DNA of 52,479 nt, taken from Parvibaculaceae bacterium (lineage in GTDB: Bacteria; Pseudomonadota; Alphaproteobacteria; Parvibaculales; Parvibaculaceae). Positions 23,542 to 28,738 of the stretch are shown one piece after another. Within the stretch, counting starts at the first letter, position 1, and each line of letters opens with the position of its first letter. Under the pieces are notes generated by a model. That model saw nothing but the letters and a program-made list of their open reading frames with translations. It was not told the origin of the DNA and made no database searches. A program made the position numbers and the translations under genes. The stretch covers positions 1-52,479 of the forward strand of contig JARGNZ010000022.1 in assembly GCA_029209985.1 (NCBI GenBank). The letters run 5' to 3'.

Positions 23542-24201
23542 ATGAGTGACCTCGTTGTGTACGGACCTGCTTACAGTGTTTATACGCGGATTGTGCGCAT
23601 GACATTGGTTGAAAAAGGGCAGAGCTACCGGTTCGAAGAGGTCGACTTTCTTTCTGAAGGGATGCCTGCAGCGCAAGTTGCACGGCATCCCTTTGGCGTT
23701 GTACCGGCCCTTGAGCATGAGGGGCGTATGTTATGCGAGACATCTTCTATTTGTACGTATTTGGATGAGGTATTTGTGGAGCCTGCGCTGCGCCCGGCCG
23801 ATGCGTTTGGGCGGGCGGGTGTTGCTGAACGTATTGCCGCATTTGACCATTATCTGTGGCCCGACATGCGGGACCTTGTTACCCAATCTCTGTTTGCCCC
23901 TATGGTTGGGGGGTGGCCTGACGAGAGTATTGTGGAGCGGGCGGTGAAACGCTTGGGGCAGACCTTGCGCATTGTCGAAGATCGTTTTCTCAGTGATGGC
24001 TTTATGGCAGGGGGCAATTTTACCCTTGCTGACTTACATGCTGGCGCCATGATTGATTATATTGTGCAGACGGTTGCTGGCGCGACGTTGGTTGCGGAGC
24101 TGCCCAACCTCAAAGCATGGCGTGAGATGATGCGGCATCACCCGGCTCTTGCTGCTACCGAAATTGATTTCGATGCGTATGAATGGACGCGGCGAGATTA
24201 A
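23542..24201 (+). CDS. Glutathione S-transferase-like protein
   Basis: 219 residues: an N-terminal thioredoxin-like domain (about 1-80) with the cis-Pro region G-V-V-P (P55) and the gamma-glutamyl-binding E66-T-S motif, then an all-helical C-terminal domain with the fold-capping stretch FTLADLHAGAM near residue 155. S12 is in the usual catalytic position. Such enzymes conjugate or isomerise electrophiles. Its three-base spacing after the MFS gene and the divergent epoxide hydrolase suggest shared handling of an electrophilic compound, which is an inference. It converges with the Rieske/MBL gene, with only five bases between stops. Confidence 0.9.
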   Translation: MSDLVVYGPAYSVYTRIVRMTLVEKGQSYRFEEVDFLSEGMPAAQVARHPFGVVPALEHEGRMLCETSSICTYLDEVFVEPALRPADAFGRAGVAERIAAFDHYLWPDMRDLVTQSLFAPMVGGWPDESIVERAVKRLGQTLRIVEDRFLSDGFMAGGNFTLADLHAGAMIDYIVQTVAGATLVAELPNLKAWREMMRHHPALAATEIDFDAYEWTRRD

Positions 24202-24206
24202 GCGGG

Positions 24207-25958
24207 CTAGTAAACACCTTGATCGATGGCGGCGCAGGCAGTGCAATTTTGCGAGGCCTTCATCACATAGTCTTTGACGTAGACGTTGGTGAAGTGAAAC
24301 CAAAAGTCCGAATTGTAGACATTGGGATCGCGTAGGACGCGCATTTGGAAACCAATGCTGAGGTCTTCCCACGGCAAACCTTCACGTATGGTGGTGTAAA
24401 ATGCTTCTTCTCTGATTTTGAGGTGAAGGACGTTGGTTTGTGTGCCGCTTTTGCGAAAGCTAGGAAGTGGAGGGAGAGGCTGTTGCGGCGGGTCGAAGAA
24501 TTGAACCGTTGTTTTGTGTTGCTCTGTAAAATCAATTGCGAATTGTTTGTGGGTGGTCTCAAAAGCATCGTCGCATAGGGAAATAAGAACGAGCAGGCTG
24601 TCTTGAAAGCCTGCCTTTTCGAAGTAACACGTAATTTCGTGATCCGTGCGGGTGCTGTAGGCTTTCTTTGAGTCATGGATGTAGGCTTCTGTGCTCCTCT
24701 CAGAGAGGAAAGCTTGTTTTTTCCTTTGGGCGCGGTCTAACTTTTTCCCGACGAATTGGAAATGGTCTGTCGCTTGGACGTTGAGCAACATTGTGTGCCG
24801 GGCGGTCGCAAGTGGTTCGTAATCCTGCACGGTGTTTTTCTGGTTGTTCTCTTTGATGTAGTGATCGCGCTTTGCGTTTTCGCTGAAAAAACCTGCGTAT
24901 GGCATAAAATAAGTTGGCGTTGTGCGTTCGAGTACAAGCCCATTTGTGGCCTTGATCGCATTGCGATTGCGCACGGTAATGCGTTGCTTTTCTTCTTCGG
25001 TGTAATTGTCAAAGCTGAGCGGAAACGATGACGCACCGCCTGCAAAGGATGAACACAGAAGTGTTATGTCTTGAGGTAAGCGCCAAAAATCAATGTAATT
25101 ACTGTCGACAGTTAGGAGGGCGCTAAACGTGCCAATCTCCAAAAGCAATCCTGAATCATCTCGAAAATCACCGCTCTTTAGGATGGAAAGCGATATTTCC
25201 TTTTCCCGCAGCACGAGACTTTTATCAAAGTCTGCGGTGAGAATTGTTTCAAAGCCTAAGGAGCGCATATAGCGGGCGGTTGAGCCTGATTGGAAATGCG
25301 CCGTTAAGATCGGCATGTCCTTGCGGATATGAGATAATGATTCTGGGTGCAGGTGATCGGGGTGATTGTGCGAAATATAGAGAAGGTCGCACGCATTGAG
25401 TTGTTCAAAGCTGTCTTCGGGTGAGGGCTGTGCCAACCACCACCCATTGCAAAAAGCGGGGCCTAAAATCCATGGGTCGGTCGCAATCTTAAAACCGCCG
25501 GACGAGATGATGAGGCAGGCATGGTTAAGAAATGTGATTTCAACGGGCTTGTCGGTTTGGAAGTTCTTGAGGCTGCGTTTGCGCTCAGAGCTTTCAAAGG
25601 ACAGGCTTTTGGTGTTGTTGGCGGCGATCGTGGCGGTGCTAAACTCAGCGAGTGGCTCTTTTGAGCAATTGACGTTTTTATATTTCCCTGTTTTGGGGTC
25701 TAAGTCCCAGCCATGCAATGGGCATTGAATGGCGCTGCCGCGTGAGATGAGTTTGCCGCCGCTATGATCGCAGGAGCGATCAAATACTTTGATGCGGGCG
25801 TCGTCTTGCCAAACAAAAAAATCATCAAATTGGGTGGTGCCCTTATTGAGTGTTGTCAGGTCAATGTTTTGGGTTGTCTTGACGTCAATAAAAGAAACCT
25901 CCTCAAGCTGGAAAGCATCAATGAGTGATGGCGCTTGAGGAGGTTTAGTATCTTTCAT
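24207..25958 (-). CDS. Rieske / metallo-beta-lactamase-fold protein resembling CMP-Neu5Ac hydroxylase (CMAH)
   Basis: A 583-residue cytoplasmic protein with two fused modules. An N-terminal Rieske [2Fe-2S] domain (about 15-125) has C63-x-H65 and C79-x2-H82. A metallo-beta-lactamase-like domain (about 137-400) has H-N-H-P-D-H at 197-202. The layout and several motifs match animal CMAH as I recall it: ITDPW/IATDPW, GPAFxxGWW, S-x-FAGGAS-x-FP, PYAGFF, YIKExNxKN, and near the C terminus IGFQxRxxRDP and FWxHF. CMAH hydroxylates CMP-N-acetylneuraminate to the N-glycolyl form with cytochrome b5. The bacterial substrate is unknown, and no neu genes are in view. A C-x2-C lies 12 residues from the end. 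A TTG at 25979 could start it; the ATG at 25958 follows AAAAGAA. It is 30 bases after secA with no terminator, and its GC is somewhat below neighbours. Confidence 0.85.
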   Translation of the reverse strand: MKDTKPPQAPSLIDAFQLEEVSFIDVKTTQNIDLTTLNKGTTQFDDFFVWQDDARIKVFDRSCDHSGGKLISRGSAIQCPLHGWDLDPKTGKYKNVNCSKEPLAEFSTATIAANNTKSLSFESSERKRSLKNFQTDKPVEITFLNHACLIISSGGFKIATDPWILGPAFCNGWWLAQPSPEDSFEQLNACDLLYISHNHPDHLHPESLSHIRKDMPILTAHFQSGSTARYMRSLGFETILTADFDKSLVLREKEISLSILKSGDFRDDSGLLLEIGTFSALLTVDSNYIDFWRLPQDITLLCSSFAGGASSFPLSFDNYTEEEKQRITVRNRNAIKATNGLVLERTTPTYFMPYAGFFSENAKRDHYIKENNQKNTVQDYEPLATARHTMLLNVQATDHFQFVGKKLDRAQRKKQAFLSERSTEAYIHDSKKAYSTRTDHEITCYFEKAGFQDSLLVLISLCDDAFETTHKQFAIDFTEQHKTTVQFFDPPQQPLPPLPSFRKSGTQTNVLHLKIREEAFYTTIREGLPWEDLSIGFQMRVLRDPNVYNSDFWFHFTNVYVKDYVMKASQNCTACAAIDQGVY

Positions 25959-25988: not shown

Positions 25989-28709
25989 CTAGAGGGCGCC
26001 GTGGCAATGTTTATATTTCTTGCCTGAATTGCAAGGGCAGGGTGCATTCCGTGCGACACGGCCCCATGTTTCTGGTCTCTCCGGATCCGCATCTGCGGCT
26101 GTTCGGTTGCGCAGAGGCTCAAGGCCACTGAGGGGATCTGACGGCTCGTCGCTCATTTCATTGCGCCCGGTGAGGGGGTCAATGTGGCTGGCGTGCATTT
26201 CAGGCTGTTGTAGCTCTGGCGCATCTTCTTGCACAAATTCGATGTGCATGAGTTGGCGTGTCACGTCTTCGCGCAGACGATGCAGAAGGTTTTCAAATAG
26301 CTCGAAAGATTCTGTTTTGTATTCGTTGAGCGGATCGCGTTGGCCGTAGCCCCGTAGTCCTACGAATTGGCGCAGCTGATCGAGCTGTTGTAGATGTTCG
26401 CGCCAGCGCATGTCGATGGTTTGTAGCAGAACGCTTTTTTCGACTTGGCGTAAAAGCTCTGGCCCTACTTGTGCGACTTTGCGGGCCATGGCCTCATCGG
26501 CGTATTTGGTCAGGCGTTCATGAATTTCTTCATTGGCAATGCCTTCTTCTGCGGCCCATTCCGCAACAGGAAGATCGAGACCCAAAATACTTTCAGTCTT
26601 CTCAACCAGTCCGGCAATATCCCATTGTTCCGCATAAGCCTTTTCTGGCATGTGCTGGGCGACCATGTCATCAATGATTTCATGGCGCATGTCGGTCACT
26701 GTTTCAGAAACATCTTCGACTTCCATCAATTCGATGCGTTGTTCAAAGATGACTTTGCGCTGGTCATTCATCACATCATCGTATTTGAGCAAGTTTTTGC
26801 GCATGTCAAAGTTGCGGGCTTCGACTTTTGCCTGTGCTTTTTCCAACGCCTTATTGATCCATGGGTGGATGATGGCTTCGCCTTCTTCCAGCCCTAGACG
26901 CTGTAGCATGCTGTCCATACGGTCGGTGCCGAAGATGCGCATCAGGTCATCTTCCAGAGATAGATAGAATTTTGAGCGACCTGGATCCCCTTGACGACCG
27001 GAGCGACCGCGCAACTGATTATCGATGCGGCGGCTTTCGTGGCGTTCTGTACCGATCACATAGAGGCCACCGGCTTTCAAAGCTGTTTGGCGTTTTGCTT
27101 CGATGTCTTCTTCAATGGCGGCTGTGCGTTTGGCAAGCTCTGCTTCACTGGTGATGCCTGCACATTCGTCTTCAACGCGCATTTGCAGGTTGCCGCCGAG
27201 TTGAATGTCTGTACCACGGCCGGCCATATTGGTGGCGATGGTGACAGCGCCGGGGACGCCTGCTTGAGAAATGATATTGGCTTCTTGCTCATGATAGCGG
27301 GCGTTGAGCACGTTGTGCTTGACGTTTTTCTGCTTGAGCAAATCGGCCAGTGCCTCAGATTTTTCAATCGAGGTTGTGCCGACGAGAACGGGTTGGCCCC
27401 GTTCTACGCAGTCTTTGACTTCAAGGGCGATGGCATTGAATTTTTCCAAGCCAGTGCGATAAATTTCATCGTCTTCGTCGACCCGTGAAATGTCGAGGTT
27501 GGTTGGCACTTCCAGAACTTCAAGCTTGTAGATGTCTAGAAACTCTTCGGCCTCGGTCATGGCTGTACCGGTCATGCCTGCGAGTTTGTCATAAAGACGG
27601 AAGTAGTTTTGGAAGGTAACTGAGGCCAGTGTTTGGTTTTCTGGCTGGATTTGTACGCCTTCTTTGGCTTCCAGCGCTTGGTGAAGACCGTCAGAGTAAC
27701 GGCGTCCTTCCATCATTCTGCCTGTAAATTCATCAATGATGATGACTTTGCCAGATTTGACGATGTAGTCGCGGTCTCTCAAAAAGAGTTTATGTGCCCG
27801 CAAGGCATTGTTGAGGTGATGCACAAGTGTGATGTTCTCAACATCGTAGAGGGAGCCTTCTTCTAACAAGCCGTGGGCGCGTAGAATTTCTTCGCCGTGC
27901 TCATTGCCTTCTTCAGACAGTGAAATTGATTTGGCTTTCTCGTCCAATTCGTAGTCTTCAGGTACAAGCTCTGAAATGAGGGCGTCGATTGAGATGTAGA
28001 GGTCGGATTTGTCGTCTAGGGGACCTGAAATGATGAGCGGGGTCCGCGCTTCGTCTACGAGGATCGAGTCGACCTCATCAACCACAACAAACGCATGGCC
28101 GCGTTGAACCATTGCGTCGAGTTGATACTTCATATTATCGCGTAGATAATCAAAGCCAAGCTCGTTGTTGGTGGCATAGGTGATGTCGCAGGCATAGGCT
28201 GCACGGCGCTCGTCATCGTTCAAGCCGTGAAGAATGCAGCCCGTTGTCATGCCTAATTGAGCAAAGACCCGGCCCATCCATTCCGCATCCCGACTGGCGA
28301 GGTAGTCATTGACCGTCACCACGTGCACGCCTTTGCCCGGCAGCGCATTGAGGTAGGCGGCTAGGGTGGAGACCAAGGTCTTACCTTCACCGGTTTTCAT
28401 TTCTGCGATGTGACCATCGTGAAGAATCATGCCGCCGAGCATTTGCACATCATAGTGGCGCTGGCCTAAGGCCCGCTTGGCAGCTTCGCGGACGGCGGCA
28501 AAGGCTTCGGGTAAAAGAGCTTTAAGGTCTTCCCCGGCTTCTAAGCGCGCCCGAAATTCTGTGGTTTTTCCTTTAAGTGCCTCATCAGACAGGGGGAGCA
28601 TCTGCTCTTCAAGAGCGTTAATGCCGGCTACCGCTGCTCGATAAGTTTTAAGCTTACGGTCGTTGGCCGTTCCAAATACGCGCTTGGCAATCGAGCCGAA
28701 ACTTACCAT
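25989..28709 (-). CDS. secA: Protein translocase ATPase SecA
   Basis: The motor that drives preproteins through SecYEG. The 906 residues are complete: Walker A in [11 protein letters not shown], the DEVDS box, the preprotein cross-linking domain, the second nucleotide-binding fold ([14 protein letters not shown]), the helical scaffold, and a C-terminal SEC-C zinc tail C-P-C-N-S-G-K-K-x2-K-H-C-H that binds SecB. The start is a choice: the ATG at 28709 gives [13 protein letters not shown], like alphaproteobacterial relatives; a TTG at 28721 adds four residues and sits just after AAGAAGA. An 8-bp hairpin lies in the leader at 28739-28761. The Rieske/MBL gene follows directly; a parvulin gene is divergent. 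Confidence 0.98.
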
Positions 28710-28738
28710 CAGGTTGTCCAATCTTCTTTAATTCTGTT

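Follow-up and report, generated by a model that had tools for sequence, protein, structure and literature searches.

A CMAH-family Rieske and metallo-β-lactamase protein from Parvibaculaceae belongs to a bacterial sister clade of animal CMAH linked to nonulosonate genes

The stretch of Parvibaculaceae DNA analysed here (52,479 nucleotides; hereafter the window) encodes a protein that, judging from its sequence, is a member of the CMP-sialic acid hydroxylase (CMAH) family, with a Rieske domain followed by a metallo-β-lactamase (MBL) domain and a conserved C-terminal region. It belongs to a bacterial clade that is sister to the clade of the animal enzyme, and nonulosonate synthase or activation genes are recurrent neighbours of its relatives in about seven lineages. 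Given the conserved Rieske and MBL sites and this linkage, N-acyl hydroxylation of a CMP-nonulosonate appears to be the most likely activity, and we put the probability that the protein is a monooxygenase that turns an N-acetylated CMP-nonulosonate into its N-glycolyl form at roughly 0.6. To our knowledge, the synthesis of N-glycolyl sialic acids has been considered beyond the capacity of bacteria, and the modification has been thought absent from microbes. Peri et al., in a 2018 survey, reportedly identified CMAH homologues in a few prokaryotes as well as in two green algae. CMAH hydroxylates CMP-Neu5Ac by adding an oxygen atom at the methyl of its acetyl group, and no structure of the family had been reported as of a 2016 review (PMC4819959); bacterial enzymes are now on offer for this family.

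The gene forms one intact open reading frame (Table 1). Its location agrees with that given by the initial annotation, to which the strand can now be added: the plus-strand frame over 24207-25958 contains many stops, while the ORF listing shows the minus strand to be open. The fused Rieske and MBL modules proposed at that stage are borne out by two Pfam matches that both exceed the gathering cut-off (for Lactamase_B_3, PF13483, residues 140-210, E=3e-9), and all motifs named then (C63/H65/C79/H82, HNHPDH, FAGGAS-x-FP, YIKExNxKN, IGFQxRxxRDP and FWxHF) were found on the minus strand, the last two as IGFQMRVLRDP (residues 535-545) and FWFHF (552-556). In a 30-sequence alignment, the Rieske ligands, the HxHxDH motif, H146, D161, D268 and D285 are essentially invariant and common to both clades described below; sequences for alignment and tree were taken by reading frame. 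A dN/dS of 0.064 against the same-genus orthologue (dS ~2) shows that the gene is under strong purifying selection. A genome contig scan yielded at least 30 full-length bacterial relatives in independent records, a lower bound since the scan used two short peptide patterns. These relatives, the near-invariant metal ligands and the low dN/dS place the observation beyond chance. No specific NCBIfam model matched the window protein or the 29 aligned relatives, which gave weak generic matches only. secA and the CMAH-like gene stand in the same order, with the same neighbours, in the one further genome sampled from this genus. The convergent GST-family neighbour scored weakly against the model of the FtsZ-binding protein FzlA (62 bits against a cut-off of 300).

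Table 1 Features of the CMAH-family gene and its surroundings in the window, and of contig C37 of the same genome.
Feature	Position	Strand	Remarks
CMAH-family gene	24207..25958	minus	ATG start, 583 aa + stop, one intact ORF
Rieske [2Fe-2S] domain	25656..25832	minus	residues 43-101; Pfam PF00355 E=6.4e-9; ligands C63, H65, C79, H82
MBL fold domain	24747..25547	minus	residues 138-404; Pfam PF13483; fold match Z ~20
HNHPDH metal-binding motif	25353..25370	minus	residues 197-202
KSGD clade-A signature	25167..25178	minus	residues 261-264; Ser262 is Asp in the animal-type clade
D285	25104..25106	minus	bridging metal ligand position by CmlA ADS-motif alignment; kept in all rows
FAGGASSFP motif	25020..25046	minus	residues 305-313
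YIKENNQKN motif	24834..24860	minus	residues 367-375
C-terminal SCP2-like domain (modelled)	24267..24656	minus	residues ~435-564; contains IGFQMRVLRDP and FWFHF
secA	25989..28721	minus	from ORF list, named from translation; co-directional, ends 30 bp before the CMAH-like gene
GST-family protein	23542..24201	plus	convergent neighbour of the CMAH-like gene; weakly FzlA-like
NeuC	C37:109239-110465		NeuC_NnaA 420 bits, cut-off 236
NeuB	C37:110462-111565		NeuB_NnaB 442 bits, cut-off 400
CBS + nucleotidyltransferase, PtmE/LegX type	C37:111543-112631		CBS + NTP transferase match
NeuA/PseF-like gene	C37:112628-113326		CTP_transf_3 match
Flagellin-type genes	C37 ~126 to 130 kb		named from translations
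Two FlmG-like TPR proteins	C37 130-134 kb

The window protein aligns with a provisional mouse CMAH sequence, which is not a database record, at 28.6% identity over 562 residues (E=2e-52), a match that serves as a lead. This full-length alignment includes the C-terminal region, on whose homology to CMAH the initial annotation had made its assignment hinge. Proteins from Nitrospira, Nitrospinaceae and Myxococcota bridge the two, with 28-31% full-length identity to the window protein and 34-40% to the provisional mouse sequence, so that the link to CMAH does not depend on that sequence alone. An IQ-TREE phylogeny of 31 sequences (the window protein, 29 bacterial relatives and the provisional mouse CMAH) splits into two clades with support of 100/100: clade A comprises 26 bacterial sequences including the window protein, and clade B unites mouse CMAH with four bacterial proteins from Nitrospinaceae (L055), Nitrospira (L056), Myxococcales (L060) and Polyangia (L061). 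In this test of orthology the window protein does not lie inside the animal CMAH clade but in its sister clade; the original claim that it follows animal CMAH across its whole length thus stands as homology, while its place is next to the animal clade. A tree of the MBL domain alone also separates the two, with weaker support for clade A (73/63) than for clade B (97/97), and places NamH, the UDP-MurNAc hydroxylase of mycobacteria and their relatives, outside both (94/91).

Compared to animal CMAH, the window protein shows the same domain order and the same motifs, but it differs in the third-strand motif, where clade A carries KSGDxR[DE]DSG in place of the Asp-bearing motif of the other clade (with one clear exception, L059, which reads PTGD), and in the bacterial nonulosonate context of its relatives; a shared substrate is putative. 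The four bacterial members of clade B are full-length homologues of the window protein as well, yet they group with mouse CMAH, and the animal enzyme may have its true bacterial counterparts in them. NeuB, NeuC and NeuA were not detected in their retrieved flanks, which for two of the four are short contigs.

A predicted model of the full-length protein reached a pLDDT of 88.2 and a pTM of 0.84. For its MBL domain, UlaG-type proteins, NAPE-PLD, RNase J and CmlA/FrsH tie at Z-scores of ~19-21, so the fold alone does not pick a function. By sequence profile, FrsH (6e-13) and CmlA (1e-10), both MBL diiron monooxygenases, are the nearest solved structures and precede the hydrolases, and the HxHxDH motif and the Asp ligands of FrsH and CmlA align with the window protein. 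In contrast to the window protein, the aligned part of CmlA and FrsH has no Rieske domain. Moreover, the position of CmlA Glu377 corresponds by alignment to K261/S262 and thus to no carboxylate; D264 could substitute for it, as far as the alignment suggests. The conserved C-terminus models as SCP2-like: folded alone by AlphaFold (pLDDT 84.7), its top Foldseek matches are SCP2 proteins, and it also resembles the SCP2 domain of MBL alkylsulfatases (best Foldseek E 7e-3, probability 0.99; Z 9.0 across 105 residues). An SCP2-like C-terminus had been predicted beforehand, and the prediction held when the domain was folded alone.

These data bear on the view that the protein is a UlaG/Lactamase_B_3-type hydrolase or oxygenates a substrate other than a sugar, and that it resembles CMAH through shared ancestry only. 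Such an activity would agree with the single-domain fold matches to UlaG-type hydrolases, which tie at Z ~20, and with the SCP2-like domain, which is common to MBL alkylsulfatases; we nevertheless judge it highly improbable, given the invariant Rieske ligands, a profile closer to MBL monooxygenases and the linkage to sugar genes. Unlike UlaG-type or Lactamase_B_3 hydrolases, the window protein has a fused Rieske domain with all four ligands. A generic metal-dependent hydrolase was rejected as the main reading because these ligands are kept and the profile favours FrsH and CmlA, and the hydrolase role once considered for the protein has become less likely for the same reasons.

Among characterized enzymes, NamH also combines Rieske and MBL parts and converts an N-acetyl into an N-glycolyl group on a nucleotide sugar; its UlaG/MBL domain is N-terminal and its Rieske domain C-terminal (PMC10050696), and it has already been described as a distant prokaryotic CMAH homologue (PMC6481270). 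The earlier statement that microbial homologues have no defined substrate does not hold up, as this related enzyme acts on UDP-MurNAc, though with reversed domain order. The similarity of NamH to the window protein lies mainly in ~250 MBL residues, and Nocardia NamH-like proteins likewise place MBL before Rieske, the reverse of the window protein. Judging from the reversed order and the weak similarity, we rejected an identity as NamH.

The genomic context of clade A points to nonulosonic acids. In 10 of the 26 clade-A loci (L034, L035, L041, L043, L046, L048, L051, L052, L053 and L054), a NeuB-family nonulosonate synthase gene shares the contig at a distance of no more than 15 kb, against 0.70 expected; after removal of near-relatives the figure is 7 of 18 against 0.47. 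The 15-kb distance was set once the loci had been seen, and the expectation assumes uniform gene positions. At the level of genomes, NeuB is present in 25 of 30 that carry a CMAH-like gene versus 149 of 397 in the background (p=9e-7, uncorrected for relatedness and with a sample that is not lineage-matched). In Pontibacter (L043), genes for NeuB, NeuC, PtmE-type, NeuA-type, methyltransferase and CMAH-like proteins all lie on one strand; Pannonibacter indicus (L035) combines a TPR glycosyltransferase, NeuA, NeuB, NeuC and a methyltransferase with the CMAH-like gene. A leg/ptm cluster together with flagellin lies near the gene in Lacimicrobium (L034), and PseI is close to it in an alphaproteobacterial locus (L041). 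Six loci representing two phyla (L033, L035, L037, L038, L043 and L044) have a class I SAM methyltransferase gene directly beside the CMAH-like gene; the enzyme might methylate the new glycolyl hydroxyl, and the window's genome has no close copy of it. The CMAH-like gene in SAR11 L053 (L053:3564-5295) is split by a frameshift, which reflects a pseudogene or else an error in the assembly, and was left out of the alignment.

Other observations argue against a CMP-nonulosonate as substrate. Clade A lacks the Asp found at position 262 in the animal-type clade, a clade-A gene occurs in Bradyrhizobium sp. 138, a genome in which NeuB was not found, which leaves room for other substrates, and the neighbour of the gene in SAR11 L050 scores as WecB and is not NeuC (the syntenic neighbour in L040 is its homologue). 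The same N-acyl hydroxylase chemistry could thus be directed at another N-acetylated nucleotide sugar, such as a UDP- or GDP-HexNAc for LPS or capsule. The Bradyrhizobium genome and the WecB neighbour would fit this, as would the activity of NamH on UDP-MurNAc; yet the recurrence of nonulosonate genes as neighbours in about seven lineages and the use of CMP-Neu5Ac by CMAH itself make it an unlikely, if still sizeable, alternative to CMP-nonulosonate hydroxylation.

The absence of visible neuA/B/C genes noted by the initial annotation applies to the 52-kb window and not to the genome, where a NeuC-NeuB-PtmE/LegX-NeuA operon lies on contig C37, with flagellins and FlmG-like glycosyltransferases ~13 kb away (Table 1). 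Genes of a CMP-nonulosonate pathway (NeuC, NeuB and NeuA-like) are thus present in the organism. Contig C6 contributes NeuD/LegH-type and LegC-like genes (LegC 357 bits against a cut-off of 420), and as no LegB exceeded its cut-off in this genome, neuraminic and legionaminic acid are not distinguishable. The CMAH-like gene lies by secA on another contig than the neu operon, so that only their presence in one genome links the two; half of the organism's relatives have NeuB, nearly all of them without a CMAH-like gene.

That the protein is a true CMP-Neu5Ac hydroxylase making Neu5Gc as the animal enzyme does would agree with CMAH-family homology along its whole length and with the scores of NeuC and NeuB above the NeuC_NnaA and NeuB_NnaB equivalog cut-offs, although these models also catch legionaminate enzymes. 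The separate clade and the different third-strand motif speak against it, the organism's own PtmE/LegX-type gene and the full leg/ptm gene sets in relatives point to legionaminic acid instead, and we regard a dedicated Neu5Gc synthesis as improbable.

For hydroxylation of a CMP-nonulosonate, we infer the reaction, substrate, destination and electron donor as follows. The window gene would encode a cytoplasmic CMAH-family monooxygenase, in which the N-terminal Rieske cluster would relay electrons from a ferredoxin- or cytochrome-type donor to the iron site of the MBL domain; no such donor was found. This iron site would add a single oxygen atom to the methyl of the N-acetyl (N-acyl) group on a CMP-activated legionaminic- or neuraminic-type nonulosonic acid, presumably supplied by the operon on contig C37, yielding the N-glycolyl sugar. 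The hydroxylation possibly serves flagellin, as the FlmG-like transferases encoded next to flagellin could place the glycan of the CMP-sugar on it; FlmG is a flagellin glycosyltransferase defined in Caulobacter (PMC7591256).

In our literature search we found no reports of N-glycolyl legionaminic or pseudaminic acid, or of a bacterial CMAH. As far as this search reaches, new findings are the division into two clades, the motif of clade A, the linkage to nonulosonate genes, the SCP2-like C-terminus and the setting of flagellin glycosylation in the window's genome. As the relatives adjoin sialic-acid-type sugar genes far beyond chance, bacteria may make N-glycolyl sialic acids, and the nonulosonate-linked clade suggests N-glycolyl nonulosonates as a surface modification unreported in the literature searched. 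That a CMAH-family enzyme lets clade-A bacteria make such sugars de novo, for display on their flagella or LPS, seems to us a tentative proposal with slightly less than even odds. If it is true, the gene in animal-associated gastric Helicobacter would be a microbial source of Neu5Gc-like antigens.

The relatives span Alpha-, Beta- and Gammaproteobacteria, Bacteroidota, Campylobacterota, Cyanobacteriota, Marinimicrobia, Nitrospirota, Nitrospinota and Myxococcota. Among 398 sampled genomes of the phylum, only the window's own carries a CMAH-like gene, and within Parvibaculaceae it is confined to the window's genus, other matches in the family being short MBL matches. A two-pattern scan of viral contigs returned no relative, nor did phage records, and phage-borne horizontal transfer was rejected on this basis; plasmid matches cover at most half of the query, and the two examined are NamH-type. 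Clade-A genes occur in three animal-associated Helicobacter species (L049, L057 and L058) with two NeuB-family genes per genome, and neuB is absent from their retrieved flanks. The single-cell genome Prochlorococcus AG-459-N19 (L036) contains a clade-A gene ~41% identical to the window protein, possibly through horizontal transfer or a contaminant contig. Finally, MBL-only relatives with a DPW...WW motif adjoin a gene that is MOSC-type by translation (L004:1504-2805 and L005:859-2364, in two genomes from the same family).
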